Assembly (NCBI GenBank): GCA_021157525.1
Contig: JAGGWK010000084.1
Location: 1 to 33,612 of the forward strand
Length of the DNA: 33,612 nucleotides
Direction: 5' to 3'
From: Candidatus Cloacimonadota bacterium
Lineage (GTDB): Bacteria; Cloacimonadota; Cloacimonadia; Cloacimonadales; TCS61
This document shows, one piece after another, positions 2,326 through 31,499 of this stretch (position 1 is the first letter of the stretch; each line of letters begins with the position of its first letter). Both the position numbers and the translations under genes were made by a program. The notes under the pieces are model-generated. The model was not told the origin of the DNA, made no database searches, and worked only from the letters and a program-made list of their open reading frames with translations.

Positions 2326-2370
2326 CGATTATCAGGGATGCATCTGCGTAAAAGTAAAATGTGATTTTCC

Positions 2371-2399
2371 CGGAAGCGGTTGCTTCCGCAGATCTTTTT
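2371..2399 (+). terminator. Possible terminator after btuC
   Basis: A perfect 7-bp stem (CGGAAGC at 2371-2377, GCTTCCG at 2382-2388) with loop GGTT is followed 6 nt later by TTTTT at 2395-2399. The T-run is slightly distant, so efficiency is uncertain. It lies between the convergent btuC and iscU genes, as expected for the end of the riboswitch transcript. Confidence 0.5.
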
Positions 2400-2440
2400 A
2401 GCTGTATAGACGGGACGAAATCAAGTTTAATTGTCTGTCT

Positions 2441-2477
2441 TAAAAACCGAGGCTTCCCATTTCTGAGAAGCCTCGGA
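2441..2477 (-). terminator. Intrinsic terminator after iscU
   Basis: A perfect 10-bp stem (CCGAGGCTTC at 2447-2456 with GAAGCCTCGG at 2467-2476) and a 10-nt loop is followed on the minus strand by five Ts (2446-2442). It begins 10 nt past the iscU stop codon and should end the rrf2-iscS-iscU transcript. Confidence 0.9.
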
Positions 2478-2486
2478 AACGGGAGA

Positions 2487-3107: not shown

Positions 3108-3110
3108 CTC

Positions 3111-4705: not shown

Positions 4706-4759
4706 ATCACCTCCATTGGGGATAACATAGTATTTTAGTAGGAATTGACAAGGGAAAAT

Positions 4760-5563: not shown

Positions 5564-7706
5564 TCTGTGGTCACTGGCAATTCTATTGCTGCTGGCATCC
5601 AACCTCTGTGGACTTGATATTGCCGGTAAGGTAATTTCTCCCACCGGGGAAGGAATTGCCGGTGTGGTGGTGGCAGGTGAAAAAACTGCCGTTATGACCA
5701 ACGCTCAGGGATTTTTCCGCTTGAAGCGTCTCTCTCCGGCAGATACGTTGTTGTTTTATAAATACGGATATCAACGGCAACGGATTGGAGCGGCGGTATG
5801 TCCATCCAGAGTAACATTACGGCAGGAAGCCATTCCCATCGATGGCATCTCGGTGGACGCCGCCACCGAGGAAGCGGTGCGGCTGGATGTACCGGGGAAA
5901 ACCACGATCCGGGTGAATGATGATGCCGGCTCTCTGGCTGCTGTGCTGAAAAGCAATGCGCAAATTTCCCTCAAGGGCCAATCCTTACCTGGACGCAGTA
6001 ACACCATTTCTCTCAGCGGCCACGATGCTCGGCACACGCTGGTTTTGCTGGATGGCATTCCACTGAACATGAATGGCAAGGCCTATGACATCTCTGCCAT
6101 CCCGGCTGAAATGATCGCCGAAGTAGAGGTGGTTCCTGCCGGCAGCTCGGCCTATCTGGGGGCTGGCGCAATTGGCGGAGCGATAAATCTTATCACAAAA
6201 AAAACGGTTCCCAATACCGTTCTCCAGTTCACATCAAAGACCACTGCCGGCTCCTTCGGTGCGGTTGGCCAAAGTTTTCTGGCATCCAGACAAAGCCCAA
6301 TCTGGGGTGCGCAAGCCTCCATCGGTTTGAAAAAAGCAAAAAACGATTTTACCTACACCGATCCGCTGGATGCAGCAGCCGATGAAAAACGGCGCACCAA
6401 TAACGATGCAGAAAATCTGGATGCCCTGTGGAAGCTCAATTTTCCCCGGGTGTTGGCCGCGGAGTATCAGGGCAGTTATCGGCATTACGAAAAAGGAGTT
6501 CCCGGTTATATCGGCCAAATCGGGCTGTTCCAGGATGCACGACTGAAGGGCGGGGTGCGGCGGCATCAGTTGCGAATGAGCACGCAAAAACAGTGGTTCG
6601 GTACACAGATCTCCGGATTTTGCTCTGATGAAGAGAGCACGTATCGCAATGGCCAGAATGACAGCGGGGACAAAACGTCCTTTTCCCGAGATGGCGCCAA
6701 AGCAACGATTTACGCTGATGTGAATGGTTGGGGACGTGTGACCCTGGGTGGTGAATATGGCGTGCAGCGATTTGCCTGCAAAAAGCCATCATCGCCACTG
6801 TTGTCCATCGATAAAGTGTGGTTACAGACGGTGGCACCCTTTGGTAAGATGCAGCTTCGGCATGGATTCGGACCCTTTTGGCTTTCCCTGAAAACAGCTC
6901 TGCGTCGAGATGCTATCAGCCGATCTGATACGTTGCAATTTGCCGATGCACCATCGTGGTTTGCCCAGGTGGCTCTGGAGTACGAAGGATTGTTTCGTCA
7001 TCGCATCGGCGGCAGTATGAGCCGTTCTTACAGCATTCCCTCCTTTTACGATTTATATTGGCAGGGGGGGAATGTGGCCATGGGAAATCCGTATCTATTA
7101 CCGGAAACCGCACATTCCCATACTCTTTTTTATCAGGCAACTTGGGGAGAACAACAGATTTCAGCAACCTGGCGGGATGATGAGATTGATGATCTCATTT
7201 ACTGGTATCGCTCTATCAGTGGCTGGAAACCCGGCAATATCGCCGCCTGCGATCTCAGCTCATTCAACATGTCTATCACCTTGCATCCCTGTTTGTGGAG
7301 CAGTATTGGCATGAACTGGATGCGGGCAAAATCAGCCGATCGATCCCGCCTTCCGGACGGTTCTCCGGCAAATACCTACGGTCTGGAACTGCCCTACCAT
7401 CCATCATCGCAAACCGTGGTATGGGCCGAATTGCATCCAGGCAAAATGACGCTGAAATGCACCTATCGCCGCACCGGTTCTCAATGGCCGCTTAGGTGGC
7501 ACAGCTGGGGGAAAATGCCAGCCTACGAGCTCTTTGATATTCAGGGTTCATACAGATTTCAGGTTTCGTCTGAATGGAGAATATTGCTGGTTGCAGCGGT
7601 CAATAATGTGCTGGATGCAGAATATCAGAGCTACCCGTTGGATCCGGCCCCGGGGCGAAATTTCACCCTGGGATGTACGATAGAATTCGATAAAATGGGA
7701 GGATAA
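5556..7706 (+). CDS. btuB: TonB-dependent outer-membrane receptor, probable cobalamin receptor
   Basis: This 716-residue outer-membrane protein starts with a signal peptide (residues 1-20). A carboxypeptidase-regulatory-like beta-sandwich follows (about 20-90, IAGKVISPTGEGIAGVVVAG), as is common in Bacteroidetes-type receptors. Next come a plug domain (about 120-220, with VLLDGIPLN and GAIGGAINLITKK) and a 22-strand-type barrel. In the family the plug contacts TonB and the barrel admits a large ligand. Its place between btuD, which it overlaps by 8 nt, and a secreted propeller argues for corrinoid rather than siderophore. The C terminus (EFDKMGG) does not end in the usual aromatic residue, though an F lies close. 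No TonB, ExbB or ExbD is encoded in the window. Confidence 0.88.
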   Translation: MNNLWSLAILLLLASNLCGLDIAGKVISPTGEGIAGVVVAGEKTAVMTNAQGFFRLKRLSPADTLLFYKYGYQRQRIGAAVCPSRVTLRQEAIPIDGISVDAATEEAVRLDVPGKTTIRVNDDAGSLAAVLKSNAQISLKGQSLPGRSNTISLSGHDARHTLVLLDGIPLNMNGKAYDISAIPAEMIAEVEVVPAGSSAYLGAGAIGGAINLITKKTVPNTVLQFTSKTTAGSFGAVGQSFLASRQSPIWGAQASIGLKKAKNDFTYTDPLDAAADEKRRTNNDAENLDALWKLNFPRVLAAEYQGSYRHYEKGVPGYIGQIGLFQDARLKGGVRRHQLRMSTQKQWFGTQISGFCSDEESTYRNGQNDSGDKTSFSRDGAKATIYADVNGWGRVTLGGEYGVQRFACKKPSSPLLSIDKVWLQTVAPFGKMQLRHGFGPFWLSLKTALRRDAISRSDTLQFADAPSWFAQVALEYEGLFRHRIGGSMSRSYSIPSFYDLYWQGGNVAMGNPYLLPETAHSHTLFYQATWGEQQISATWRDDEIDDLIYWYRSISGWKPGNIAACDLSSFNMSITLHPCLWSSIGMNWMRAKSADRSRLPDGSPANTYGLELPYHPSSQTVVWAELHPGKMTLKCTYRRTGSQWPLRWHSWGKMPAYELFDIQGSYRFQVSSEWRILLVAAVNNVLDAEYQSYPLDPAPGRNFTLGCTIEFDKMGG

Positions 7707-16652: not shown

Positions 16653-17942
16653 ATGAAAAAGATTCTAACATACCTGTTTCTGGTTGCGACGGCAATCCTC
16701 AGCGCTGGGGATCTCACCCTTGAAAACGCCAGAATCCTGGCATTGCAAAATAATCTGGAACTCAAAGCGCAGCGCCAGAATGCTTCATCTTCTACATTGG
16801 ATTATTATAAATCCTTTGCCGCATACCTGCCTCAGGGCTCTGCTTCAGCCGGGATGTCTATGCCCAGGGATGGTGTGGATAGCGAAACCAGATCCATTGA
16901 TATTAGTCAGCCAATAGTAAACACCAGAGCGCTTCTGGGCATATTAAACAGTAAACAATCGAAAAAAATCTCGGACTACTCCCTGCAATCCAGCATTTTG
17001 TCCACTCTCTACCAGGTGGATTTGCGCTATTACGCCGTTCTGAAAAATACCGATTTGTTGAAAATCGCCATGGATAACAGCAAATACGCCCGTAACCAAT
17101 TGGAGATCGCCCAGACAAAATACCAATTGGGCGTGATTTCTCAAACCGATGTGATAAATCTCCAAGCCACCATGGCTCAACGGGAAGTGGAACAGATTCA
17201 GGCGGCCACATCCCTGGATATCAGCCGGGAAGCTTTGGCTCATTTTTTACAGATTGATAGCTCCTTCAGTCTGCCAGACATCGATCCCGAGACACTGGAA
17301 GCCCAAACCGAAAGTTTCCGCACCATCACCAGCGAAGATGCAGATAAGATAATCACCACTCTCACAACGTATGCCCAAAAACACAATCCCCGGTGCAAAA
17401 TAGCCGAAACCAATACAAAAATCAAAAACAACAACTATCTCGGCAGCTACGGTTCTTTTATTCCTACCGTAAATTTACGCTACGGAACCAATTGGCAAAA
17501 AACCGAACTTCAGGATAACTTTAGCGACTCTTCCACCCTTTCCATCTCAGCGTCGGTGCCCATATTCCCGCTGGCGGATAGCGCCGTGGATATCGCTTCC
17601 CATCGCCATAGCCTCAGGGCCGCTCAATACAGCGAAAAATCTACCGATAGCGATATTGATCTGCAAATCAGGCAAAGTGTGATGAATCTCATAGCAGCTG
17701 CACGAGCTACCCAGTCAGCCAAGTTATCGCTGGTGTACTCCGCCTCTCTGTATCAACAAAAGGTGGTAACGTTTGAAAACAACGCCATATCTACCACGGA
17801 GTTGCTGGACGCTTCCATCCTGCTTGCCAACGCAAACCAGCTCTACACTGCCAGCCTCTACAGCTTTCTCACCAGTCGCGCCGCCCTTTTACAGCAGCTG
17901 GGAACAACCGATGAAATGGTCATCACAAACAGTTTAAAATAA
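16653..17942 (+). CDS. TolC-family outer-membrane efflux protein
   Basis: This 429-residue protein has a signal peptide (1-18). The OEP-family pattern of two similar halves with long helices is visible: LTLENARILALQNNLELKAQRQ at the start, YAVLKNTDLLKIAMDNSKYARNQLEIAQTKYQLGVISQTDVINLQ in the first half, and the matching VVTFENNAISTTELLDASILLANANQLYTASLY in the second. It forms the trimeric outer-membrane tunnel of a tripartite pump with the following two genes. It is first in the operon, with AAGGAG before the start and a promoter plus regulator site upstream. No lipobox is seen. Confidence 0.92.
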   Translation: MKKILTYLFLVATAILSAGDLTLENARILALQNNLELKAQRQNASSSTLDYYKSFAAYLPQGSASAGMSMPRDGVDSETRSIDISQPIVNTRALLGILNSKQSKKISDYSLQSSILSTLYQVDLRYYAVLKNTDLLKIAMDNSKYARNQLEIAQTKYQLGVISQTDVINLQATMAQREVEQIQAATSLDISREALAHFLQIDSSFSLPDIDPETLEAQTESFRTITSEDADKIITTLTTYAQKHNPRCKIAETNTKIKNNNYLGSYGSFIPTVNLRYGTNWQKTELQDNFSDSSTLSISASVPIFPLADSAVDIASHRHSLRAAQYSEKSTDSDIDLQIRQSVMNLIAAARATQSAKLSLVYSASLYQQKVVTFENNAISTTELLDASILLANANQLYTASLYSFLTSRAALLQQLGTTDEMVITNSLK

Positions 17943-17955
17943 TAATGGAGAAATT

Positions 17956-19050
17956 ATGAAAATACGCACAATCGCACTCGCTTTTTTGGTCGTTCTTTTT
18001 GCAGGATGCAGTAAGCCGGGACGTCCTGGCAGGTCTTCCGGCAAAGTGACAAAACCCATTTCTGTAATGACGGAAGTGTTAACACCACAATCAATTGAAG
18101 ATTTTGTAACCATCACAGGGACGCTGGAAGGCAAAACTGAAGTGGTGATGATGAGTGAAGTAAGCGGCCGCGTGAAACAGGTAAATGTTTCACTGGGCCA
18201 ATGGATAGATGAAGGCCAGAGCGTGGCAGAATTGGATGCTCCTCAGTATCAGATTCAGTTGGATCAGGCACGGGCGTCATTTCTGGCAGCAAAAGCTGCG
18301 TTGGAAGCGGCGGAATTGAACAATCAATCGGCTCAAACTCTCTACGAAAAACAAGCCATTTCCCAAGGGGAATACAAACAGACTCTCAGCAACTATACGT
18401 CGGCACAAGCGGCATATCAGGGGTCTCAGGCAAATCTGGAGATGGCGCGGAACACCCTGGAATCCAGTCGGTTTTGTGCACCGGTGAGCGGCTGGATAAG
18501 CTACCTGCCCATCCAGAAAGGAGAATATCTCAAAATGAACACCGCCATGTGCAAGATTGTCGATGACCGCCAGATGATTATTCGCACCAGGGTAGGGGAA
18601 AACGAAGTGACCAGCTTGCAGCCGGGGATGTCGGCGATTATCATAACCAAGGCATCGAAGGGGATGCATCCTGCCAAAATAGCGGCTATAGGAAAGAGCC
18701 CGGCTCCTGGCAGTGTGCTGTATCCTTTGGATATCCTTGTGCAAAATCCTCAGCGTGAGCTGTTGAGTGGGATGATGGTGAGTGTGCAAATTTTGCGTGA
18801 TACCTTTGATAACGTGTTGGCGACGTCCGTGGAAAATCTGCGTCAGAGCTATGACGATCACTATCTGTATGTGGCCACCCCAGCCAATACTGCAGAGAAA
18901 CGGGTTGTTACCATCGGTGAGCAGATTGATGGTAAGGTGATTATCACCAGCGGCGTGAAGGCCGGTGAGCAGGTGATTTCCGAAGGATTGGACAGCATCA
19001 GTGATGGCGCCGCCATCGAGATACGTGCTGGCGAAACCGGGAGAGAATGA
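17956..19050 (+). CDS. RND efflux periplasmic adaptor (MFP/HlyD family) lipoprotein
   Basis: This 364-residue adaptor has a lipobox LFAGC (C18). Family features in order are a barrel-sandwich/lipoyl half-motif (VVMMSEVSGRVKQVNVSLGQWIDEGQ, about 56-81), a helical hairpin (about 90-155, IQLDQARASFLAAKAALEAAELNNQ), the second lipoyl half (FCAPVSGWISYLPIQKGEYL), a beta-barrel domain and a membrane-proximal domain ending VKAGEQVISEGLDSISDGAAIEI. It joins the inner-membrane RND pump to the TolC-like tunnel. The stop overlaps the start of the RND gene, so the two are translationally coupled. Confidence 0.94.
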   Translation: MKIRTIALAFLVVLFAGCSKPGRPGRSSGKVTKPISVMTEVLTPQSIEDFVTITGTLEGKTEVVMMSEVSGRVKQVNVSLGQWIDEGQSVAELDAPQYQIQLDQARASFLAAKAALEAAELNNQSAQTLYEKQAISQGEYKQTLSNYTSAQAAYQGSQANLEMARNTLESSRFCAPVSGWISYLPIQKGEYLKMNTAMCKIVDDRQMIIRTRVGENEVTSLQPGMSAIIITKASKGMHPAKIAAIGKSPAPGSVLYPLDILVQNPQRELLSGMMVSVQILRDTFDNVLATSVENLRQSYDDHYLYVATPANTAEKRVVTIGEQIDGKVIITSGVKAGEQVISEGLDSISDGAAIEIRAGETGRE

Positions 19051-22000
19051 TGAGTCTGGCGCAATTTTCCGTAAAAAATCCCACGCTGATCAACATGATC
19101 ATGATCATCACCTTTGTGGCTGGAATCTTTGCCATGGTGATGATGCCCAAGGAAGAGATGCCCGCCATTGAGATGGGACGTTTTATCATTACGGTGAGTT
19201 ACCGTGGGGTTTCTCCCACAGAAATGGAAACTCTGGTAGTGAAAAACATCGAAGACGAAATCTCTGATGTGGATGATATCGACTATATCGAATCTACCAG
19301 CAAAGAGGGTTTTGCCACCATTATGGTGGTGATGGAGGCGGACGCAGATCTTGATCAGAGCTGGAACGACTTAAACACCGAGCTGGATAAGGTAAATAAT
19401 TTACCCGCCGATGCCGATGACCCCCAGATGATTCGCATAAACATGCGGGAAATGAACGAAATCTGTAACATTGTGCTTTCGGGGGATTTTTCAGACAACG
19501 CGTTGCGGGATATGTCTGAAGATTTTCGGGATCAGCTATTGGAAGTAGATCACGTATCAAAAGTAAAGCTTGCCGGAACTCGTGAACGGGAAATCTGGGT
19601 AGAAGCAATCCCTGAAAAGCTGGAGCAGACCGGCATCACCCTCAACGAGATTTCCTCAGCCATCAGAACCCGTAACAACAATATCCCCGGCGGTACAATT
19701 ACTTATGGCAAGCAGGATTTTATCATGCGCTGCATCGGGCAATATTCCTCGGTGGAGGCCATCGGTAACACGGTTTTGCGGGGCTCGGCTCAAGGGGGAC
19801 GCATCCTGCTGAAGGATGTTGCAACCATTACCGATACCTTGGAAGAACGGAAGACCTTGGGAAAACTCAACGGCACCGCCGGAGTAACCATGAGAGTGTA
19901 CAAAAAGGCCGAAGGCAACATCATCACCGTGATGGAAGATATTCGTGAACAAGCCGCCGCCTTTGAAAAAAACATCACCGGTCTGCACATCGAAGTGCGC
20001 AATGACGGTTCTCTGGACGTGAAGAAAAGCATCTATTCACTGGGCAACAACATGCTTCTGGGCATCATTTTTGTCTTTGTTTTGCTTCTGATATTTTTAG
20101 GATGGAAAAACGCCCTTTTTGCAGCGTGGGGCATTCCCTTCAGTTTCTTGCTTACGCTGTTTATCATGAATCAATTTGATATTACCATCAATAATCTCAG
20201 TCTTTTTGGGATGATTCTGGTACTGGGGATGATCGTGGATGATGCGATAATTGTGCTGGAGAATGTGCATCGTCACCGGGAAGCGGGCTTACCCCTGAAA
20301 GAAGCCGTGATACAGGGCTCGCAGGAAATCACCTTGCCGGTGATAGCTGCGGTGCTCACCACAATCTCCGCTTTTTTACCGCTGATGTTCCTCAGTGGCG
20401 GCATGGGCAAATTCCTGGGAATCTTCCCCAAAGTTGTGGCCATTGCTCTGGCCGCATCCCTGATAGAAAGTTTACTCATTCTCCCGAGCCACATCGCAGA
20501 GCTGGGAGGACAAAGTAAAAAGAAGAGAGGAAAAAAGGCGGAATCCCGCATCACTGTGTGGTTGCAGGGGCACTATGAAAATGCAGCACAATGGGCTTTG
20601 GGTCATCGAAAAACGATCATGCTTGGATTGTCAGTCCTGTTCATTATCAGCATCGGTATTTTGGGCATGGGACTGGTAAAATTCGAATTTTTCCCCAGCC
20701 GTGCATCCAGTACCATTGTCTTGAATATCAAGGCTCCCAGCGGGTATCGGCTGGAAAACACCAATGCACTGGTGGAGAAAATCGAAGACCACATTGCATC
20801 CATGCCGGAAAGTGTAGATGTGGAAGCGGTGGTTACCAACGTTGGTCAATTGAAAGAAAGGCATCAAAACCAGGTGGAGAGCAACTATGCCGAGATCAAC
20901 ATCGACCTTTTGGATAAAGATGATATGCACTATACCCACAACGATATTCGCAACAGCATCCGGCAGTTTATCGATCAGCTTCCGGGCGTGAGCTCCTATG
21001 CCTTTAAAGAGGGAAGTCACGGTGGCGCGCCGAGGGCAGAGGATATCGAGTTGCGGGTGAAGGGCGAAGATTTCAATACTCTGGCGGCTATCGATGTCTA
21101 TCTCAACGAGAAGCTGTCAGCCATTCCCGGCATCACCGATATTGAAAGCGATCTGCAGGCGGGAAAGAACGAAATCCAGATTTTACCCCACTACGATCTT
21201 TTAAAAAACTATGGCATCTCCCAAAGCCAGATTGCTTCCATGGTTTCCACAGCGGCATACGGACAAACCGTCTCAACCTATCGGGGCAGCGGGATGGATG
21301 AATTTGATATCATCCTGAAAGTGAAAGAAGACCGCGTAGAAACCCTGCAAGACATCCAGAACCTCAAAATCACTGCCATCAACGGCGACAATATTCCCCT
21401 CAAGGAATTGGCCGATTTCGTTATCACCAAAGGATATTCACAGATAAACCACTACAACCAGAAACGGGTGATGAAGGTAACGGCCAGCACTACCACCTAC
21501 AATAACAACGGCAGGATGGAAACCCTTACACCCAGTGAAGCAACCAGCCTCCTGAAGGGAAGCGGGATCACCAATCAAGATGGCGCTTTGTCAGATTTTT
21601 CCACCCGATATCCCGGCTATACTCTGGAATTTGGCGGTTCTGCCGAGCAACAAGCTGAAACCTACAATTCCCTCTATCTGGCGTTGCTCATTGCTCTGCT
21701 GCTCATCTTCACCATATTGGCTACCCAGTTTAAAAGCTATGTGCAGCCCCTTATCGTGATGATCACCATTCCCTTCTCCCTTATCGGTGTGATTCTGGGA
21801 CTGCTCATCACGGGCCTGCCATTTTCGGTGATGACTCTCATTGCGGTGGTTGCCCTGGCTGGCATTGTGGTAAACGATTCATTGGTACTGGTGGATTTTG
21901 TTAATAAAGAACGTGATCGCGGTACAGACCGCTGGAATTCCCTCATCAATGCCGGTTCTACGCGGTTGCGTCCCATCTTGATGACCACCGTAACAACCAT

Positions 22001-22256
22001 CGGTGGCTTTTTACCGATGATTCTCTCATCATCCAGCGCAACAGAGGACTACAAGCCTCTGGCAGTGGCCATCGCTTTTGGATTGGCCTTTGCCACGACC
22101 CTCACGCTTTTCGTGATTCCGGTGCTTTATTCCTATGTCGATTCCTTCTTTGGGCGTCTAAAACTCACGCGTTTCCGTACGCATCTGAGTTTTAACGATG
22201 CCATGATCATCAGAGAAAAGCAGCGGATAAAAGAGAGCAACGAACCCACAACGTAG
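19047..22256 (+). CDS. RND-family efflux pump permease (AcrB/HAE1-like)
   Basis: This 1069-residue inner-membrane pump belongs to the resistance-nodulation-division family. The N terminus SVKNPTLINMIMIITFVAGI is the usual first membrane helix, followed by a large porter domain. Then comes a block of helices containing GMIVDDAIIVLENVHRHREAG with the paired acidic residues of the proton relay, a second porter domain and a second helix block (VNDSLVLVDFVNKERDRG, ILMTTVTTIGGFLPMI). The substrate is not readable; regulation by an envelope-sensing two-component system suggests export of toxic compounds or an envelope component. Two tandem ATGs (19047 and 19050) are possible starts. A strong terminator follows, ending the operon. 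Confidence 0.95.
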   Translation: MMSLAQFSVKNPTLINMIMIITFVAGIFAMVMMPKEEMPAIEMGRFIITVSYRGVSPTEMETLVVKNIEDEISDVDDIDYIESTSKEGFATIMVVMEADADLDQSWNDLNTELDKVNNLPADADDPQMIRINMREMNEICNIVLSGDFSDNALRDMSEDFRDQLLEVDHVSKVKLAGTREREIWVEAIPEKLEQTGITLNEISSAIRTRNNNIPGGTITYGKQDFIMRCIGQYSSVEAIGNTVLRGSAQGGRILLKDVATITDTLEERKTLGKLNGTAGVTMRVYKKAEGNIITVMEDIREQAAAFEKNITGLHIEVRNDGSLDVKKSIYSLGNNMLLGIIFVFVLLLIFLGWKNALFAAWGIPFSFLLTLFIMNQFDITINNLSLFGMILVLGMIVDDAIIVLENVHRHREAGLPLKEAVIQGSQEITLPVIAAVLTTISAFLPLMFLSGGMGKFLGIFPKVVAIALAASLIESLLILPSHIAELGGQSKKKRGKKAESRITVWLQGHYENAAQWALGHRKTIMLGLSVLFIISIGILGMGLVKFEFFPSRASSTIVLNIKAPSGYRLENTNALVEKIEDHIASMPESVDVEAVVTNVGQLKERHQNQVESNYAEINIDLLDKDDMHYTHNDIRNSIRQFIDQLPGVSSYAFKEGSHGGAPRAEDIELRVKGEDFNTLAAIDVYLNEKLSAIPGITDIESDLQAGKNEIQILPHYDLLKNYGISQSQIASMVSTAAYGQTVSTYRGSGMDEFDIILKVKEDRVETLQDIQNLKITAINGDNIPLKELADFVITKGYSQINHYNQKRVMKVTASTTTYNNNGRMETLTPSEATSLLKGSGITNQDGALSDFSTRYPGYTLEFGGSAEQQAETYNSLYLALLIALLLIFTILATQFKSYVQPLIVMITIPFSLIGVILGLLITGLPFSVMTLIAVVALAGIVVNDSLVLVDFVNKERDRGTDRWNSLINAGSTRLRPILMTTVTTIGGFLPMILSSSSATEDYKPLAVAIAFGLAFATTLTLFVIPVLYSYVDSFFGRLKLTRFRTHLSFNDAMIIREKQRIKESNEPTT

Positions 22257-22287
22257 GGGAGAGTAGCTCACCATCTTACTCCTCTCG

Positions 22288-22321
22288 GGTGGCGCACTTT
22301 TTGCTGTGCCACCTTTTTTTC
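22288..22321 (+). terminator. Intrinsic terminator after the efflux operon
   Basis: GGTGGC at 22288-22293 pairs with GCCACC at 22308-22313, extendable by G-T and C-G pairs to about 9 bp, followed by eight Ts or TC (22314-22321). It lies 32 nt after the RND stop codon. Confidence 0.92.
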
Positions 22322-22491: not shown

Positions 22492-23964
22492 GTGGGAATA
22501 CGCATTATTGAAAACCTGTTGATCATCTATTATCTCTGTTATTTTCTCATCGACTGGCTTTTCTTTCTTATCTTCCTCGCGAAAGTAAAACGGGAAAAAT
22601 GTGCCCTGTCTGCCGATGACGCCTTTGCCGAATATCCCGTTTCGGTGCTGGTTCCCGCCTATAATGAGGAAGTTACTATCGTTGCCAGTGTGCAGATGCT
22701 TCTGGCGCTGGATTATCCGGATTACGAAGTGATTGTGATAAATGATGGTTCTGGAGATGGGACATTATCCACTCTAATGGCAGCATTTGAGCCGCGAAAA
22801 ATTGCAGAAACCCGTTGGCAGGGGATGATCACTGACTCCATCGTTACGCAGCCTGTGAAAGATGTTTACACAGCCATGGATGGTAAACTTATTATCATCG
22901 ATAAAGTAAATGGCGGTAAAGCTGATGCCATCAATGTGGGTATAAACCTCTCACAAAAACCTCTGGTATGCACCATCGATGCCGATTCTGTGTTGGATAA
23001 TCAGGCCCTGAAGCAAACAGTGCAGCCCATGGTGGATGACGCTACTGTGTTCGTGAGTGGGGGACAGCTGGCCGTGGCAAACGGCGTGAGCCTGAAAAAC
23101 AATCGGGTAGTCAATTCTGTTTTACCCAAAAATCCCTGGGTTCAGTGGCAAATCATCGAATACATGAAATCCTTTATGATTGCCCGTTACAGCATGAGCA
23201 AACTCAACAGCATCATGATCATGTCCGGTGCTTTTTCGGTGTATAAGCGCACCGATTTATCTACTGTGGGGGGCTTTTTGACCCAGCGCAACACCAGCCC
23301 GTATATCCGGGAAATTGGTGCAGCCGGACGCCAAACCGTGTGTGAAGATATGGAGATTGTCGTGCGATTGTGGCGCTATTTTTATTCCCAGGGGAAAAAG
23401 GCCAGAGCGGTATTTTTACCCCATCCTGTATGCTGGACGGAAGTGCCGGATAATCCGGGTTTTTTGCTGCGACAACGAAATCGCTGGCACCGCGGCCTGG
23501 CGGAAACCCTCAAGATTCACCGATCCCTGCTTTTTGATCCCGCCTACCGCGCTATCGGACTTTTTGCCTACCCCTACTATCTCTTTTTTGAATTATTGGC
23601 TCCCATCATAAAGATTGGAACCGTGGGCTTCTTGTTATACGCCGGTATAAATGGTTATTTTAACAAATCCTGGATGCTGCTGGCCACGCTGTTTGCTAGC
23701 GCTGCATCGGCCCTCATTACCTGCCTGGCCACCATATTTGTGGAACAATGGACCAGCAAAAAACAGTTGGCATCCTATGATGCGCTGCGCTACAAAACCG
23801 GCTGGGACTGGCTACGCCTGGTATTGATGAGCATCTGGGGAGGTGTGGTTTACGCTCCCTTCCGCATTTATGCACAGATCCAGGGACTCAAAGATTTTCT
23901 TATAAAAAAAAACGAATGGTATAAATTCGCCAGAACAGGTTTTGGCGATAAGGAGGAAAATTGA
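22492..23964 (+). CDS. Processive GT2 glycosyltransferase, probable exopolysaccharide synthase
   Basis: This 490-residue membrane glycosyltransferase has one N-terminal membrane helix (about 5-30), a cytosolic GT-A domain (about 48-345) and three to four C-terminal membrane segments (about 350-450). The processive beta-glycan synthase motifs are present: D85 in VINDGSGDG, DAD at 163-165, ED at 285-286 and Q328xxR331W332 in RQRNRW. This is the arrangement of PgaC/IcaA, NodC and hyaluronan synthases, which polymerise UDP-sugars and push the chain across the inner membrane. The start is GTG at 22492, with GGAGGAG before it. It is first in a five-gene operon with an outer-membrane exporter and two deacetylases, which points to an N-acetylated polymer such as poly-N-acetylglucosamine. 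The sugar itself is inferred. Confidence 0.88.
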   Translation: MGIRIIENLLIIYYLCYFLIDWLFFLIFLAKVKREKCALSADDAFAEYPVSVLVPAYNEEVTIVASVQMLLALDYPDYEVIVINDGSGDGTLSTLMAAFEPRKIAETRWQGMITDSIVTQPVKDVYTAMDGKLIIIDKVNGGKADAINVGINLSQKPLVCTIDADSVLDNQALKQTVQPMVDDATVFVSGGQLAVANGVSLKNNRVVNSVLPKNPWVQWQIIEYMKSFMIARYSMSKLNSIMIMSGAFSVYKRTDLSTVGGFLTQRNTSPYIREIGAAGRQTVCEDMEIVVRLWRYFYSQGKKARAVFLPHPVCWTEVPDNPGFLLRQRNRWHRGLAETLKIHRSLLFDPAYRAIGLFAYPYYLFFELLAPIIKIGTVGFLLYAGINGYFNKSWMLLATLFASAASALITCLATIFVEQWTSKKQLASYDALRYKTGWDWLRLVLMSIWGGVVYAPFRIYAQIQGLKDFLIKKNEWYKFARTGFGDKEEN

Positions 23965-24893
23965 ACAAGATGCTATTCAGCATTCTCGCACTGGTTTTGC
24001 TTATGGGCCTGACAGGATGTGATGTGGAAAATGAAACCGCGCCGGATCTTCAGGCTCCGGAAATTACGATTACTTATCCAGGGGAGTGGGCCACGATCTG
24101 TTCTCAACAGTTAGAAGTGCATCTGGATGTGTTGGATGCACACCCGATAGATTCGGTGATAGTGTATGTGGATGGCCAGCCGATACAGACTTTCACCACC
24201 ACTCCCTATCAGCTGATGCTGCAGAAAGCCGACTACGACGACGGACAGCATACCATCTATGCCCAGGCTACTGACAGTCATGGCAATACCGGCAACTCTA
24301 CTTTGCTCAATTTTTTCTGGATGCAGGAAGAGCAGCAGTCACAGATTTCCGTGGAGATTGTGCGCCCCGTATTGTGGGAAAAGTTCACTTCCGATCAGAT
24401 TCCTGTACAGATCATCAGCGAAAGCCTTCAACCTCTCAGCAGTATTGAAGTCTATGTAGATGGTCTGTTGGCCCACACTTTCAGCGAAGCTCCATACGAA
24501 ACCACCCTCACCATTGATACGCAGGGGGTGCACAATATCTATGCCCGGGCCACCGATGACCTGGATTTCTCCCAAAGCTCTACCCTCAAGCACTTTGAGG
24601 TGGTAACCATCGACCTGCAAGATCCCACCGGATTCATTGCTTCCCCGGCCGATTGGAGCGACGTGACCGGTATCGTAAATGTGCAGATAACCGCCACAGA
24701 CAATGTGGACATAGATCGAGTAGAACTCTTTGTAGATGGCGATTTTTACAGCCAATCCGCCGCCGCTCCCTACCAGTTTTCCCTGGATTCCAGCAACCTC
24801 ACAAACGAAAATCATACACTCTATGGCATGATTTATGATACATCGGAAAATTCCTGCGTTACTCAATTAATCACTGTTCGGGTTAACAACTGA
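23961..24893 (+). CDS. Lipoprotein with three Ig-like repeats in the polysaccharide operon
   Basis: This 310-residue lipoprotein has signal peptide and lipobox LTGC (C20). It carries three tandem Ig-like repeats of about 90 residues: one each near 31-115, 128-212 and 220-308. Each has the pattern ...P..W....S...V.....D...I.SV.VYVDG.........PY.......D...H.IYA.A.D, seen for example in SVIVYVDGQPIQTF, SIEVYVDGLLAHTF and RVELFVDGDFYSQS. I prefer the TTG start at 23961 because AAGGAGG lies 5 nt before it and it overlaps the synthase stop by 4 nt; the ATG at 23970 is an alternative. Such modules often bind glycans or proteins. The role in assembly or attachment of the polymer is an inference from position only. 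Confidence 0.8.
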   Translation: MNKMLFSILALVLLMGLTGCDVENETAPDLQAPEITITYPGEWATICSQQLEVHLDVLDAHPIDSVIVYVDGQPIQTFTTTPYQLMLQKADYDDGQHTIYAQATDSHGNTGNSTLLNFFWMQEEQQSQISVEIVRPVLWEKFTSDQIPVQIISESLQPLSSIEVYVDGLLAHTFSEAPYETTLTIDTQGVHNIYARATDDLDFSQSSTLKHFEVVTIDLQDPTGFIASPADWSDVTGIVNVQITATDNVDIDRVELFVDGDFYSQSAAAPYQFSLDSSNLTNENHTLYGMIYDTSENSCVTQLITVRVNN

Positions 24894-26452
24894 TGCACAA
24901 AATCATTCTTATTCTGGCCCTTTGCTCTGTGGCTTTTGCCCTGAATGCCGTTGCACCAGCCGTTCATTCAGCTCTGGATGCAGCAGATTATCCCACCGCC
25001 ATCGCTCTTCTGCAGGCAGAGACAGCGCAGGATGGCGACATCGAATCCTGGCGATTGCTGGGCTATGCCTATCGGATGCAGGGAAACCTCAGTGAAGCCG
25101 TTTCTGCCTATGCCAAGGTGCTGGAACAGAATTCCACCGATTACGATGCCCGGCTTGCTTTGGCGCGGCTCAATCTGCAAAAAGGCGATTTCAAAACAGC
25201 CAAAGCACTGTTCAATGGCATCCTGGATGAAGATAAAACCGATGTAGAAGCATGGCGTGGATTGGCAAGCATCGCCCAGACAACCGAAGACTACCCTGCG
25301 GCAGTTGAAGCTTGCACCATGGCGCTGAGCTATCTGCCGAATGACATCCCCACCATGCTGCAATTGGCCCGCATGCAGAGCTTTTGTGATATGATCGATG
25401 ACGCGATAGAAACCTACCTCGCTATAAACGATCTGGATGCCACATGGGCAGAAGCATGGGCAGGACTTGGACGCATGATGTGGTGGCAAGACAATCCCCA
25501 CAGCGCGATGGGGTATTATCAAAAAGCACTGCGCCTTGATCCGGAAAATGCCGATATCCAAAAGGAATACCAAAACGCAAAAAACGCAGTAAAATGGTCT
25601 GCCGTCAGTGGCTTTTCCCGGGTGCAAGAGCGGGAAGAAACCGTAACCACAGATGGTTACAATCAGCAGTATAAACTGCAAAAACGGCTGACGGACAATC
25701 TGAATGTGGCGCTGAACAGTTTCTGGCAATACAGTCAAAAAAAGTGGAAACAGAGCAACTCCGTTGAGGAAAAGTGGTTTGATACCAACTTTGCGCAGGT
25801 CACCTGCCGCTTGCATCCCGGACTGCAAGTAAGTACTACCTGCGGCGGATCCATAAGTGATTCCGTGCTAACCATCTGGGATGCCGGAGTGGCGTACGAT
25901 GTGCAGTGGAAAGGACTGAAACTGAAGAACAATTTCCGAGGGGGCACCGAATATTTTTTCCATTGGGAACATCTGAGCCGTTGGTATATGACGAATAATT
26001 TTTCAGCTCAGTGGCAAAAACTCACCTTTTCCAGCGATTATACCAGCGGGAAAGTGAAAGAAACCCTTATCTGGGAAGACACGACCCTATCTGAAATTCC
26101 CTTCCTCAACTATGCTTTGACCCTGAGTTATTTGCTCTATCAGCCGGCAAAACTGAATCTGGGAGCCAGTTATCGGTTTATGGATTTCGCCTACGAATCA
26201 TCGCAATTTTACACACCGCAAAACCGCAGTCTGGTGGGCGCAAATATATCTTTTTATTATCCCTGCCACCAGTGGTATCTCTATGGTGCTTCCTCTGTGG
26301 AGGAAGATAACAACGACGAATTTGGCTACAGCAACAATCTGGAAGTGGGGGTGAATATCGCAGGGCTCTCCATTTCTGCCGGGTACAGCAATTTCAAAAA
26401 TCCTTATTATGAAAGCGATTCAGTATCACTTACGTTAAGTGGAAGGTTTTAG
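24893..26452 (+). CDS. TPR-barrel outer-membrane protein, probable polysaccharide exporter
   Basis: This 519-residue protein has a signal peptide (1-16). About six TPR repeats follow (about 20-235, clear in WRLLGYAYRMQGNLSEAVSAY and AGLGRMMWWQDNPHSAMGYYQKALRLDPE). The C-terminal region (about 240-519) has alternating beta strands ending in LTLSGRF, with a terminal phenylalanine as in outer-membrane barrels. A periplasmic TPR scaffold joined to a barrel is the design of PgaA and, as split proteins, PelB, AlgK/AlgE and BcsC, which export glycans made by an inner-membrane synthase. The barrel (about 280 residues, roughly 16-18 strands) also resembles YaiO. The gene overlaps the Ig-lipoprotein stop by 1 nt. 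Confidence 0.85.
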   Translation: MHKIILILALCSVAFALNAVAPAVHSALDAADYPTAIALLQAETAQDGDIESWRLLGYAYRMQGNLSEAVSAYAKVLEQNSTDYDARLALARLNLQKGDFKTAKALFNGILDEDKTDVEAWRGLASIAQTTEDYPAAVEACTMALSYLPNDIPTMLQLARMQSFCDMIDDAIETYLAINDLDATWAEAWAGLGRMMWWQDNPHSAMGYYQKALRLDPENADIQKEYQNAKNAVKWSAVSGFSRVQEREETVTTDGYNQQYKLQKRLTDNLNVALNSFWQYSQKKWKQSNSVEEKWFDTNFAQVTCRLHPGLQVSTTCGGSISDSVLTIWDAGVAYDVQWKGLKLKNNFRGGTEYFFHWEHLSRWYMTNNFSAQWQKLTFSSDYTSGKVKETLIWEDTTLSEIPFLNYALTLSYLLYQPAKLNLGASYRFMDFAYESSQFYTPQNRSLVGANISFYYPCHQWYLYGASSVEEDNNDEFGYSNNLEVGVNIAGLSISAGYSNFKNPYYESDSVSLTLSGRF

Positions 26453-26457
26453 AAATC

Positions 26458-29400
26458 ATGAAAAAGAAGTACTTTGTTACCGCCCTCTTTTTTCTTCTGC
26501 TGGTGGTCATCGTTTCCCTGATGATACGGGTAGAAGACAAATTGCGGGAAGAGAAGATCATCGTGATAGACAGCACTCGGGTGCGCACTCCTTTGTTACC
26601 ACCTCACACTTCTGCTGTTGTACAGGATGCAGCAGCGGGCGTGAGCATCGATTTTATGGTGGCTGGCGATTATTTTCAGTATCGGAAGATAGACAAGAGT
26701 CTGGATGCCGGTGAGAAGTGGGAATCGCTGTTTTTAAAAGGGGTGAACCTGGGTGTGGCGATGCCGGGAAAATTCCCCTCGGAATTCCCTGTGGACTACG
26801 ATTTGTATGCCGGATGGTTTGAAGAGATAGGCGCTATGAACGCTAATGTGGTGCGGGTTTATACCATCCTGCCACCAGAGTTTTACCAGGCTCTGGCTCA
26901 GTACAATCTTATCTACTCCGACAAACCTCTTTACCTCATGCAGGGAGTGTGGGCAACTGTTCCCGATGATCACAACTATTTTAATGACGACTACACCTAC
27001 CTCTTTCAGAAAGAGATAAAAGACGTGATCAATGTCATTCACGGTAACGCTGTGCTTTCTCCACATCCGGGGAAAGCTGACGGCACCTACGTATCCGATG
27101 TTTCCCGCTACACGGTGGCCTATCTTCTGGGTCGTGAGTGGGAGCCCCAGGGGATGACTTTTACCAACCTCAATAACGATGCTACAGCCTATCTGGGTGA
27201 TTTTATCTCGGTGCCGTCCGGGAGCCCGATGGAAATCTGGCTGGGACAAATGATGGATTTTACCCTGAAATATGAGACTCTCCAATACAAAAACCAGCAC
27301 CCCGTTTCCTTTGTGAACTGGCTTCCGCTGGACCCGATGTTTCACAACAGCGAATTTATCGAGCACGAAAAAGTGCGGGAATATGACAACGATCTGGAGT
27401 GGATTGATTTCCAGAATTTCCACTCAACAGCAAAGACACACACCGGCATTTACGCCGCCTATCATGCCTATCCATACTATCCCGATTTTATCTATATGGA
27501 CGAAAAATATGCGCAAAATGGCGATGATAATTATCTGCCCTATTTGCAGGAACTCAAAGAATATTGTCCCGATATGCCTTTGATTATCGCCGAGTACGGC
27601 GTGCCATCCAGTCGCGGGAATAGCCATTTTTCTCCCTACGGATTTCATCAGGGGGGACATAATGAACAGCAGCAGGCGGCCATCAATCGGCTTCTCACCC
27701 AAGACATCCACGATGCCGGGTGCGGCGGAGCTATTATATTTGAGTGGTTGGATGAGTGGTTTAAATTTAACTGGATGGTGATGGATTTTGAACAGCCGCC
27801 GCATCGTCGTAAATACTGGCACAATATGGAAAATCCAGAGCAGAATTTTGGTATTGTAGCGCTGGAGAACCGTAGCCGCATCATTGATGGCTCTGACGAT
27901 GATTGGCCAAAAACAGCAAAATATGCTGATCAGATAGAAGCCGCCGCAGATCCTGGTTACTTCTATTTGCGCTACCATTTGTCAAATTTTGATTTTGCCG
28001 GAAATAACCTCATTGTGGCCATAGACACCTATGACAAATCCAGAGGGGATCACACCATTCCTCTGGTGAACCTGCCTTCCAGGCGGGGTGTGGAATTTGT
28101 CCTCTATTTTCAATCACCCGATTCTGCCCGGATTATGGTGGATGACTACTATTCGGTATTTTCCGACATCTATAATGATTACATCCCGGTGTATGCCTCC
28201 AAGGAAAACAACAATGGCCGGTTTGTTGATGAGGAGCTGTTGTCAAATCGCGAGCGGCAAACTCTCACAGGCAAAACCTGGCGGCGCATTATCTTCAATC
28301 GCAGCCCGCTGATTCATGGCACTTTAGAGGAAAATTCCAATACCGATTGGTGTTACGACGCCGAAACCGGAATCTTGGAAGTGCGTCTGGATTGGCATCT
28401 GCTCAACGTATCGGATCCATCCTCCCGCCAAGTGCTGAATGATGCGGAGGGCACGTCGGAGATCGAAACCACAACCACCGAGGGTTTCCACATCCAGAGT
28501 TTTGTAACAAATCAGGCAAACGCCGTAGAGGCATCCATCCCGGCAGGCAGAAAAGAGTTTTTTTTCACTTGGGATGGTTGGGATTCTCCTCAATATGAAA
28601 CCCGATTGAAAGAGCAGTATTATGTGTTGCAAGAGCAATTTGCCGGCCTTGAGCCCAAAGAAGATACCCGGGTAAAACCGCAGCAAAACACCTTTTCTAT
28701 TGCATCCTGGCACATGAACAAACCAGGAGCAATATCCATTACCTTTGATGATTGCAGCTATGGCCAATACCAGTACGGATTTCCGACATTGCAAAAATAT
28801 AAGGTAAAAGCCGATTTTGGCGTAGTAGGCGAGTGGATGGCCGAAGAACCCCGCTCCACAGCAGAAGAGGGGGTGTTCAGCATCCGGCGTATGGGATGGC
28901 AGCAACTGCGGGAACTGGCAGCGGCTGGAAACGAAATCAGCTCCCATGGCTACCTGCATCAAGCCATAGATGAGACGGAGCCCGAGGAAAAACTGGTAGC
29001 AGACTTGGCAAAGAATCGTAATCTCATCCGGCAAAATGTCGGGGTAGAGGCCGTTACGATTCACTATCCCTACTCCTACAGTCGGGATGCAATTGCTGTG
29101 GCCGCTCGGAAAGCTGGCTTTTTGTTTGGCAGAGTAGGGGATGGCGGCAAGCAAAACAGTTCGACAAAATCCCGGTACAATCTCAATAGCAAAGTGGTGT
29201 TGAATAATCAGGATCCAGATCCCGGCACATTCAACCGATGGATCGAAGAAGCTGCTGGAAACTGGCTGGTGATGATGTATCATCACATTTTTCCCGAGGA
29301 CAGCAAGGAGATGAAGCTGTACCGTTATCATAACGTGTATAACCAATATGCGCTGACGCCGCGGAACTTTGACAAACAGGTGCGTATGCTGCGCAACAGC

Positions 29401-29682
29401 GGCTACTGGATAGCCCCGACGGCGCAGGTGGGAAAGTATCTGGCAGAGCGGGAAACCGTGGCCATCAGAACCAGCCTGACATTCAATTCCTATGTGCTCA
29501 CGCTGGAATCACCGCTGAATGCCGAAGTGTATGATCAGCCACTGACGGTGATTTTCCAGACAAATTGGCAAACGGTGAAGATCAGTCACAGCCAGCGAGA
29601 CGGCGTTTACACCGTTCGCAATGGCCGGATTATGTTTCCGGCGCTGATCAACAGAAAAATTATTATCGAGAAGGTGAAATAA
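26458..29682 (+). CDS. Membrane-anchored glycoside hydrolase / CBM9-like / CE4 deacetylase fusion
   Basis: This 1074-residue periplasmic protein has one N-terminal membrane anchor (4-23). Residues about 88-470 look like a clan GH-A TIM barrel, with FLKGVNLGVAMPGKFP as the first strand and candidate catalytic glutamates E227 (GREWEP) and E379 (LIIAEYGVPS). Residues about 475-690 resemble a CBM9/DOMON-like beta-sandwich (IIDGSDDDWP, then YFYLRYHLSN). Residues about 745-995 form a CE4 polysaccharide deacetylase with D764 and D765 (TFDD), H830 and H834 (SHGYLH), HYPYS, and H942/H943 (MMYHHI). A small beta-rich tail follows. PgaB pairs the same two activities in the opposite order (CE4 first). The likely job is to de-N-acetylate and trim the nascent polymer in the periplasm. 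Assignments are by motif only. Confidence 0.8.
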   Translation: MKKKYFVTALFFLLLVVIVSLMIRVEDKLREEKIIVIDSTRVRTPLLPPHTSAVVQDAAAGVSIDFMVAGDYFQYRKIDKSLDAGEKWESLFLKGVNLGVAMPGKFPSEFPVDYDLYAGWFEEIGAMNANVVRVYTILPPEFYQALAQYNLIYSDKPLYLMQGVWATVPDDHNYFNDDYTYLFQKEIKDVINVIHGNAVLSPHPGKADGTYVSDVSRYTVAYLLGREWEPQGMTFTNLNNDATAYLGDFISVPSGSPMEIWLGQMMDFTLKYETLQYKNQHPVSFVNWLPLDPMFHNSEFIEHEKVREYDNDLEWIDFQNFHSTAKTHTGIYAAYHAYPYYPDFIYMDEKYAQNGDDNYLPYLQELKEYCPDMPLIIAEYGVPSSRGNSHFSPYGFHQGGHNEQQQAAINRLLTQDIHDAGCGGAIIFEWLDEWFKFNWMVMDFEQPPHRRKYWHNMENPEQNFGIVALENRSRIIDGSDDDWPKTAKYADQIEAAADPGYFYLRYHLSNFDFAGNNLIVAIDTYDKSRGDHTIPLVNLPSRRGVEFVLYFQSPDSARIMVDDYYSVFSDIYNDYIPVYASKENNNGRFVDEELLSNRERQTLTGKTWRRIIFNRSPLIHGTLEENSNTDWCYDAETGILEVRLDWHLLNVSDPSSRQVLNDAEGTSEIETTTTEGFHIQSFVTNQANAVEASIPAGRKEFFFTWDGWDSPQYETRLKEQYYVLQEQFAGLEPKEDTRVKPQQNTFSIASWHMNKPGAISITFDDCSYGQYQYGFPTLQKYKVKADFGVVGEWMAEEPRSTAEEGVFSIRRMGWQQLRELAAAGNEISSHGYLHQAIDETEPEEKLVADLAKNRNLIRQNVGVEAVTIHYPYSYSRDAIAVAARKAGFLFGRVGDGGKQNSSTKSRYNLNSKVVLNNQDPDPGTFNRWIEEAAGNWLVMMYHHIFPEDSKEMKLYRYHNVYNQYALTPRNFDKQVRMLRNSGYWIAPTAQVGKYLAERETVAIRTSLTFNSYVLTLESPLNAEVYDQPLTVIFQTNWQTVKISHSQRDGVYTVRNGRIMFPALINRKIIIEKVK

Positions 29683-31454
29683 TGAAAAAGAGATTTTTAC
29701 TCCTCATCCTCACGTTGTGCGCATTGGCTTTGCACAGTGTAGAATACCAATTACCCAAGGCGTTGTTTATCACCAGTGGTGATGGCGAAGGCTACGGAAC
29801 CGTGTCGGACGGCGTGATTCTGTCGCTGCAGGAGCTCAATAAATCCGGTGCTTTCGTACGGTTGGAAAATCGACAGATTCTCCATTTTCCCAAGAAACTT
29901 GCCCAATTTACCATTTTGATTATCCCCACCACCTTTGGGTATCATGATGCAGATAGGCGCTATTCTCTCTCCTTTTTATCAGATGTCGAGATGCAGAACA
30001 TCAGCGCATGGGTAAAGCAGGGAGGCACCCTGGTGAGCGATGTGTACTTGGGACGCAACAGATTAAACGGTGAAGACCGGATCTCTGCATCCAACGAAAT
30101 GACTCAGGAAAATTGGCCAATGGCACAGTGTTTTGGCGTGAATCTGATAGAGAAAAACATGCAGAATCAGCGCATTGTGAGCAGTGGAGAAGGGCCATGG
30201 CAGGGAGACATCACGCCGGTGTACGATACACCCGAGTGGACCCTGATTCCATCCAAACTGATGGATCGCTCCACCCGCATTTTGGCCAGATGGTTTCAGG
30301 AAAAGCCCGGCGAACCAGCCATCACGGTGCATCCCTATGGCGCAGGAACAGCGATTTTGCTGGCAACCTTTAATCTTATCCATCCGGCAGGAGATGGAGG
30401 CTTTTCAAACGGCAAAGAAATTCAGGCCTTTTATCATCTGGTCTATCACACCGCTGTGTCGCAGCGTAAGTACGAGATAAACCTTAATCCCTGGAAAAAC
30501 GGTGCACAGAGCGCTTTTTGTCTCACCTTGGATGATGGCGGATCCCCGGAACAATACCGGCGCATCCTGAGCTACATCCAGAGGGAAAAAATCCCCACTA
30601 CCATTTTTTCCAGTGACGATGTATCCCCCGAAGTCGTTGCATTATTGCATCAAAATCCTTACATCACCTTGCAAAGTCGTTCTCATTCCAAACCGGATTT
30701 CCGCACTCTCAGCTATGGCGAGACGGTTGAAGAATTGCTGGGAAACAGCTCGCATTTCCAGACCAGGTTCACCGGCTTTCGCTATCCCTTTACCAACAAC
30801 AGCTTTTGGGGCATGAAGGCCCTGGATGAGTTGGGCTTTTTGTATGACTCTTCCATTGCCCTCAATCATCTGGAATTTTACCGTGGATCCCTGTTTCCCT
30901 ACAACATCCCGATTTTTCAGGATGGCTATTACCAGAGCCTCGATCTCTTGGAAATTTCACAGATTTTTCATGATGACTGGTACTATTTTCAGGACGTTCT
31001 CACCAATGCAGATTACAACTCCGAAGACCAGAAGCGAGATGCCTCCCGTTTTGACGCCTATCTGCAAACCCTTTGGATGCGGGGTGTGCGCCCGAACAAT
31101 GGCTTGATGGTCTTTATGGGACATCCCCTTTACTCAGGCATGAGCAGCATTGCCATGCAGCCCCTTAAGCACATGGTTGAAACCGCCCGCGAAGATGGCG
31201 CCTGGATAACCAGTCCCGACGAAGTGGCGCAGTATTGGAACCAGTTGCGTGACCAGAAGATTGACGTGAAAGAGGTTGGCCCGCGGGTTTCTTTGCGCAT
31301 GAGTGAGGTTATCGATGGCCAGAGTTTTCGGTTGCCGTCGCGGCCCCGCTCGGTGACCTTTGATGGTGAATATGAAATTATTGAACAGGGTGGCGCATTT
31401 TTCCTGATTCTGAAAAAGGGTGCTCCACAACGTACTGTTACTCTGGAGTTTTAG
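29682..31454 (+). CDS. Secreted amidotransferase-like / divergent CE4 deacetylase-like protein
   Basis: This 590-residue protein has a signal peptide (1-20). The start at 29682 shares one base with the preceding stop; longer in-frame starts upstream lie within the previous gene. Residues about 24-260 resemble a class I glutamine-amidotransferase-like alpha/beta domain (ALFITSGDGEGYGTVSDGV, ISAWVKQGGTLVSDVYLG, HPYGAGTAILLATFNLI), without an obvious catalytic cysteine. Residues about 275-515 follow the CE4 plan: LTLDDGG (D284, D285), SRSHSKPD (H335, with D339 where the second metal histidine is expected), FRYPF (366-370) and FMGHPL (H481). The last 70 residues are beta-rich. It may be a second deacetylase, a modified-specificity enzyme or a non-catalytic polymer-binding protein. 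PelA also combines several such modules. Confidence 0.72.
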   Translation: MKKRFLLLILTLCALALHSVEYQLPKALFITSGDGEGYGTVSDGVILSLQELNKSGAFVRLENRQILHFPKKLAQFTILIIPTTFGYHDADRRYSLSFLSDVEMQNISAWVKQGGTLVSDVYLGRNRLNGEDRISASNEMTQENWPMAQCFGVNLIEKNMQNQRIVSSGEGPWQGDITPVYDTPEWTLIPSKLMDRSTRILARWFQEKPGEPAITVHPYGAGTAILLATFNLIHPAGDGGFSNGKEIQAFYHLVYHTAVSQRKYEINLNPWKNGAQSAFCLTLDDGGSPEQYRRILSYIQREKIPTTIFSSDDVSPEVVALLHQNPYITLQSRSHSKPDFRTLSYGETVEELLGNSSHFQTRFTGFRYPFTNNSFWGMKALDELGFLYDSSIALNHLEFYRGSLFPYNIPIFQDGYYQSLDLLEISQIFHDDWYYFQDVLTNADYNSEDQKRDASRFDAYLQTLWMRGVRPNNGLMVFMGHPLYSGMSSIAMQPLKHMVETAREDGAWITSPDEVAQYWNQLRDQKIDVKEVGPRVSLRMSEVIDGQSFRLPSRPRSVTFDGEYEIIEQGGAFFLILKKGAPQRTVTLEF

Positions 31455-31461: not shown

Positions 31462-31499
31462 GGGGCAGGATGCGGGTGCATCCTGCCCCTGATTTTTTT
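31462..31499 (+). terminator. Intrinsic terminator after the polysaccharide operon
   Basis: A perfect 12-bp stem (GGGGCAGGATGC at 31462-31473 and GCATCCTGCCCC at 31478-31489) with loop GGGT is followed by TGA and seven Ts. It lies 8 nt after the last gene of the operon and overlaps the stop codon of the convergent gene. Confidence 0.95.

Follow-up and report, generated by a model that had tools for sequence, protein, structure and literature searches.

Among described polysaccharide systems, PgaABCD of Proteobacteria, which makes poly-N-acetylglucosamine (PNAG), combines a processive glycosyltransferase of family 2 (GT2), a protein with tetratricopeptide repeats (TPRs) and a 16-strand β barrel, and one periplasmic protein with a hydrolase and a carbohydrate esterase family 4 (CE4) domain. 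The cellulose system BcsABCZ also contains a GT2 synthase, a hydrolase and a TPR-barrel exporter. In the Pel system (PelA–G), PelF is a GT4 enzyme. Domains 2 and 3 of PelA are an α/β domain followed by a CE4-like domain (PMC12022489). The NfrA/NfrB pair for the NGR glycan of Escherichia coli consists of a stand-alone GT2 and a TPR plus 16-strand barrel protein, with the barrel of NfrA having been likened to the polysaccharide pores PgaA and BcsC (PMC8669472). For synthase-dependent biofilm systems, a published survey took profiles of known operons as its starting point and covered mostly proteobacterial and firmicute genomes (PMC7112194), and it could therefore miss a system like the one described here, which is encoded by five genes at 22492-31454 (+ strand) of a 33,612-nucleotide stretch (hereafter, the window; contig JAGGWK010000084.1) from a 2.2-Mb genome of the Cloacimonadota group.

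We consider it likely that these five genes form an operon for synthase-dependent exopolysaccharide secretion that matches no kind of system described in the literature that we searched; the publications covered on Cloacimonadota polysaccharides, Pga-like operons and GH157 contained no account of it. The system works like Pga, Bcs and Nfr and belongs to none of the systems tested by family features, and probably represents an undescribed relative of the biofilm polymer systems already known. We infer the identity of the polymer, its secretion and its role in biofilms, with a partly de-N-acetylated glycan as one possible product. An initial annotation of the window had proposed a complete synthase-dependent secretion line, a proposal supported by the synthase motifs, the model of the TPR plus barrel protein, the hydrolase/CE4 fusion and the conserved gene order. 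All five open reading frames were found at the positions and on the strand given in that annotation, with successive junctions of a 4-nt overlap, a 1-nt overlap, a 5-nt gap and a 1-nt overlap. They make up one transcription-unit-sized block between two intrinsic terminators. The terminator at the end of the operon (31462-31489, + strand) has the 12-bp stem previously noted and a T tail, whereas the upstream border is the terminator of the preceding RND efflux operon (22287-22314, + strand; 10-bp stem, T tail); because the latter closes the upstream efflux gene, the block is well bounded. The five-gene block is far beyond chance, given that its gene order recurs across phyla.

The first gene (22492-23964, + strand; GTG start codon with GGAGG upstream) encodes a GT2 synthase of 490 amino acids of the processive type, an assignment based on Pfam GT2 families, NCBIfam, hhalign, a phylogenetic tree, motifs and hydropathy. 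The motifs NDGS (22741), DADS (22978), EDME (23344) and QRNRW (23473) represent the D, DxD, ED and QxxRW signatures, which were invariant or nearly so across 25 aligned sequences, and hydropathy analysis revealed hydrophobic segments at both ends of the protein. Profile similarity extended to PgaC and to hyaluronan, cellulose and chitin synthases, with hhalign probabilities of 99.7% for E. coli PgaC and 96.3% for BcsA. The best NCBIfam match was PgaC/IcaA, with a score of 100.3 bits against a cut-off of 422.3, and the protein lay apart from PgaC/IcaA in the tree. The GT2 proteins of the full systems in Cloacimonadota, Ignavibacteriota and Bacteroidota formed one group (Shimodaira–Hasegawa-like approximate likelihood ratio test [SH-aLRT] value of 98), those adjoining hydrolase-only genes formed another together with one haloarchaeal GT2 lacking a hydrolase (SH-aLRT of 95), and a WOR-3 pair lay apart from both; with its very long reference branches, the tree shows how the GT2 proteins of the system group rather than their exact sister. 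An identity as an O-antigen or lipid glycosyltransferase was rejected, the protein being nearest to processive synthases, so that the processive GT2 proposed initially stands. As also stated in the initial annotation, the operon has neither a PgaD nor a PilZ partner: no PgaD gene was found in the operon or beside the synthase in relatives, and no PilZ match was detected on the synthase or anywhere in the genome. Four GGDEF proteins are encoded in the genome, and no cyclic di-GMP (c-di-GMP) receptor was recognised in the operon.

The third gene (24893-26452, + strand) encodes a predicted outer-membrane exporter with a signal peptide, about six TPR pairs and a 16-strand β barrel, as judged from TPR families, AlphaFold2 and Foldseek. 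The AlphaFold2 model (predicted local distance difference test [pLDDT] score of 93) contains 12 TPR helices after the N-terminal ones and then exactly 16 strands; as modelled, the protein is an outer-membrane barrel with periplasmic TPRs, the architecture that had been claimed from the sequence. BcsC (9b8h) was the best whole-length Foldseek match and, of the 50 best matches by fold, the only one that is a polysaccharide exporter. The NCBIfam score for PgaA was 32.2 bits against a cut-off of 366.7, and a profile comparison with PgaA aligned the TPRs only (11.7% probability); homology of the exporter barrel therefore rests on the model.

The fourth gene (26458-29682, + strand) encodes a membrane-anchored hydrolase/CE4 fusion, identified with a structure model (pLDDT of 91), Foldseek, Pfam (for the CE4 part only) and hydropathy. 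An N-terminal transmembrane helix is followed by a TIM barrel (residues ~70-470), a β-rich region (~490-735), the CE4 domain (~740-1000) and a C-terminal β domain. No Pfam model, NCBIfam model or PDB sequence matched the hydrolase domain in the window protein or its tested relatives, and no credible solved relative was found by sequence outside the CE4 part. We therefore relied on a fold search, which matched the TIM barrel to a GH157 laminarinase, to GH2 enzymes and to an endo-laminarinase from Formosa, GH157 being the nearest solved glycoside hydrolase (GH) family. Two glutamates conserved in at least 90% of relatives (46 in the case of E227) occupy the expected places in the model: E227 (27136-27138, + strand), the proposed acid/base, at the end of barrel strand 4, and E379 (27592-27594, + strand), the proposed nucleophile, on strand 7. 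By the model, the hydrolase is thus of the clan GH-A type, with a TIM barrel and conserved Glu residues at strands 4 and 7 as in GH157 and other enzymes of the clan, from which it differs in its sequence (11-12% identity), in its fusion to a CE4 domain and in its tie to a synthase operon. In the CE4 part, D764, D765, H830 and H834 of motifs 1 and 2 are all present in the alignment columns (28747-28959, + strand). The best NCBIfam match of this part was PgaB, at 51 bits against a cut-off of 322, and its model matched PgaB/BpsB structures among others. Only the CE4 part of the fusion aligns with PgaB, and the domain order is reversed, with the GH domain preceding the CE4 domain.

The fifth gene (29682-31454, + strand) encodes a second CE4-like protein composed of a class I amidotransferase/ThuA-like domain, a CE4-like domain and a C-terminal region (PF08532 matched in 26 of 32 relatives, PF01522 in 19 of 32). 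Its reading frame is intact. Alignment with relatives revealed a degenerate CE4 motif 2 (30678-30692, + strand) in which R333 and K337 replace two metal-binding histidines. The initial annotation had listed a fusion with a deacetylase and a second deacetylase-like protein; a reading as two working deacetylases holds for the motifs of the fusion and not for the second protein.

The distribution of the system was determined in a scan of one genome per species with two short peptide patterns, which gives a lower bound. Full-length fusions were found in Cloacimonadota, Ignavibacteriota, Bacteroidota and WOR-3. Counting only loci with the relevant flank present, we found the barrel gene directly upstream of the fusion in 31 of 32 loci, the synthase upstream of the barrel gene in 25 of 25, and the second CE4-like gene in all 30, downstream in 28 and upstream in two, both of the latter in WOR-3. 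The sole break in synteny was in Chlorobiota (L047), where a contig-truncated fusion gene is preceded by neither a barrel gene nor a synthase gene. Over 23 loci, pairwise distances of the four core proteins correlated with r values of 0.80-0.94, as expected for joint inheritance. A restriction to the Cloacimonadota lineage, as initially suspected, was not observed: the full fusion was present in only 7 of 125 Cloacimonadota genomes, and the system shows greater variety in Bacteroidota, Ignavibacteriota and WOR-3. Of 396 evenly sampled Bacteroidota genomes, one (L025) had the full fusion and eight had a hydrolase-only form. The neighbourhood survey thus showed that the genes stay together in relatives rather than being scattered. 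The notion of a five-gene unit holds for the four core genes; the remaining gene, for an immunoglobulin (Ig)-like lipoprotein, was found in Cloacimonadota only.

CE4 motifs 1 and 2, read by eye from alignment columns, were intact in the fusions of 7/7 Cloacimonadota, 2/3 Ignavibacteriota, 1/2 WOR-3 and 3/19 Bacteroidota. Downstream copies of the second CE4-like protein kept them in 2/5 Cloacimonadota, 0/2 Ignavibacteriota and 0/19 Bacteroidota, and the two upstream WOR-3 copies kept them as well. In seven Bacteroidota loci, the synthase is preceded by an additional stand-alone CE4 gene that is intact in every case, whereas the adjoining fusions are all degenerate (7/7); four of these loci also encode the second protein upstream, in a copy that is intact each time (4/4). 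Most Bacteroidota downstream copies of the second protein begin with lipoprotein-like signal sequences. Five genomes in which the copies are degenerate (L031, L033, L034, L039 and L044), and which as metagenome-assembled genomes (MAGs) may be incomplete, yielded no separate stand-alone CE4 gene; in L025 and L035, none is visible at the locus but one is present elsewhere in the genome. We read this pattern, from the sequences, as a history of duplication, transfer of activity to the duplicate and retention of dead domains, and such retention suggests that the dead domains may have a structural or binding role. At L041:1410-4259, L045:1003-3854, L046:579-3511 and L032:4100-6954, a gene of the second-CE4 type and a CE4-only gene, both intact, are paired upstream of the synthase; set against the degenerate downstream paralogues and fusion CE4 domains, they are a natural series in division of labour.

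We propose that the GT2 in the inner membrane would polymerise a β-linked amino-sugar or glucose polymer and pass the chain to the periplasm. There, the fusion, anchored in the inner membrane through its N-terminal helix, may trim or clear chains with its putative retaining clan GH-A endo-hydrolase (E227/E379), and its CE4 domain, in which the metal and base residues are intact, may remove acetyl groups from some of the sugars. The second CE4-like protein, whose metal site is lost in the window, is probably a polymer-binding or docking partner. The polymer would then exit through the modelled 16-strand barrel, guided by the periplasmic TPRs.

Compared with Pga, the window system is without PgaD, has an extra CE4-like protein, and carries a hydrolase of another family placed before the CE4 domain; membership in Pga was rejected given the scores far below the cut-offs, the reversed PgaB layout and the lack of PgaD. 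The second protein shares with PelA the layout of domains 2-3, whereas the synthase is a GT2 and PelD, PelE and PelG are absent. Membership in Pel was rejected, with no PelF, PelG, PelD or PelE family among the operon proteins and no sequence match to the solved PelA. The Bcs system differs in its PilZ domain, its BcsB and its lack of the CE4 domains found here, and it too was rejected, no PilZ having been found on the synthase or in the genome. In contrast to the window locus, the NfrA/NfrB neighbourhood in E. coli has no hydrolase or CE4 gene, and the c-di-GMP (MshEN) domain of NfrB is absent here.

It is somewhat unlikely that the system makes mainly glucose polymers (β-1,3 or β-1,4), with the hydrolase as a β-glucanase and the CE4 parts binding the polymer or acting on O-acetyl groups. 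The laminarinase and GH2 folds nearest to the hydrolase, the similarity of the exporter barrel to BcsC and the dispensability of the deacetylase motifs in many members are in keeping with such a product, but clan GH-A spans many substrates, so that specificity cannot be read from the fold, the GT2 resembles PgaC more closely than BcsA, and the CE4 residues of the fusion are kept in all seven Cloacimonadota members. A divergent PNAG system, in which partly deacetylated poly-β-1,6-GlcNAc is handled by a fusion that is a rearranged PgaB, we regard as unlikely. The best NCBIfam matches of the GT2 and CE4 parts are indeed PgaC/IcaA and PgaB, respectively, and both the hhalign result for PgaC and the match of the CE4 model to PgaB/BpsB point the same way; the scores (100/422, 51/322 and 32/367 bits) nevertheless fall far under the family cut-offs, PgaD is missing, the reversed fusion shares only its CE4 part with PgaB, and the GH domain matched GH157 and GH2 rather than the hydrolase of PgaB among the best 50 structures. 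The position of the GT2 outside PgaC/IcaA and the loss of CE4 residues in most Bacteroidota members also argue against PNAG.

Slam barrels have 14 strands. It is very unlikely that the TPR-barrel protein functions as a Slam-like (type XI) exporter of the adjacent Ig lipoprotein, with the sugar enzymes serving turnover of an envelope glycan rather than export: a weak TPR_Slam match and the adjoining lipoprotein gene would fit, but homologues outside Cloacimonadota keep the barrel without the lipoprotein, the best whole-length fold match is BcsC, and the modelled barrel has 16 strands, like that of NfrA (PMC8669472). Several points also weigh against the exopolysaccharide secretion system that we favour. 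The GH-A match concerns fold and not specificity, and its TM-scores are low since the query is multidomain; the covariation of the core proteins partly reflects shared descent; and the members are known from genes alone, nearly all of them in MAGs. In several members, neither the locus nor the genome appears to encode an intact deacetylase of this type, and deacetylation therefore cannot be a fixed step.

More tentatively, we suggest as a possibility that the exopolysaccharide system constitutes a distinct class in at least four phyla, its polymer being different from PNAG, Pel and cellulose alike; that the hydrolase is the founding member of a new family in clan GH-A, whose pairing with a matching GT2 lineage reaches far outside these phyla; and that the deacetylase-like domains repeatedly become catalytically dead scaffolds for handling the polymer, with the active centre shifting to a duplicated gene. 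The loci provide candidates for matrix polymers in the Fibrobacteres–Chlorobi–Bacteroidetes (FCB) group and WOR-3, the hydrolase family, unnamed in the libraries searched, could serve as a matrix-cutting tool, and the deacetylase domains, active in some members and dead in others, form a natural series that raises the question of what such domains do besides catalysis.

CE4-free relatives of the hydrolase were found in Spirochaetota, Acidobacteriota, Myxococcales, Bacillota, Deinococcota, Gemmatimonadota and Actinomycetota, often with an adjoining GT2 gene, and in Deinococcus and Planococcus the set consists of the hydrolase, a HEAT-repeat protein and a GT2. Because hydrolase-only genes adjoin GT2s that group together outside the phyla with the full system, we infer that the hydrolase and this GT2 lineage may be old partners to which these phyla added the exporter and deacetylase-like parts. 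On a Planococcus plasmid (L117:2940-10375), genes for polyphosphate polymerase, DUF4956, CotH, the hydrolase (annotated as hypothetical), a HEAT protein and a GT2 lie in a row, which by its gene content is an exopolysaccharide-like locus in a Gram-positive bacterium, not annotated as one. CotH, polyphosphate polymerase and DUF4956 are accessory genes that flank Gram-positive pel operons (PMC7112168). On a haloarchaeal plasmid (L119:2733-5230), a gene for a HEAT-repeat protein adjoins one for a GT2 that belongs to the same wider lineage (34.5% identity), with the hydrolase not nearby. Hydrolase-only relatives in Bacteroidota (L131:8221-10746, L132:7422-9986, L133:8154-10724 and L134:7537-10095), mostly without an adjacent GT2, end in an apparent type IX secretion sorting domain; in these genomes, members of the unnamed GH family apparently serve as secreted enzymes.

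The second gene of the operon (23961-24893, + strand; TTG start codon) encodes the lipoprotein, which has three Big_7 Ig-like domains (PF17957, E = 2e-34) and an LTGC lipobox with an acidic +2 residue. In E. coli, an acidic +2 residue (Asp) keeps a lipoprotein in the inner membrane, a rule that may not apply to Cloacimonadota. Homologues were found at five Cloacimonadota loci only, and all five proteins share C-[DE]-[VI]-[EK]-N after the lipobox (window 23961-24050). The lipoprotein may be an accessory component specific to Cloacimonadota that perhaps binds the polymer or acts as a bridge.

Directly upstream of the operon, translations revealed a complete RND-type efflux set (16653-22256; TolC-like protein, membrane fusion protein and RND pump) with its own terminator, which appears unrelated to the polysaccharide operon. 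Genes at 534-7706 encode, as judged from their translations, a periplasmic binding protein, an FecCD-type permease, an ABC ATPase and a TonB-dependent receptor; together they resemble a single locus for the uptake of a metal chelate or cobalamin, which is split by a minus-strand Rrf2/IscS/NifU-like set at 2487-4705.

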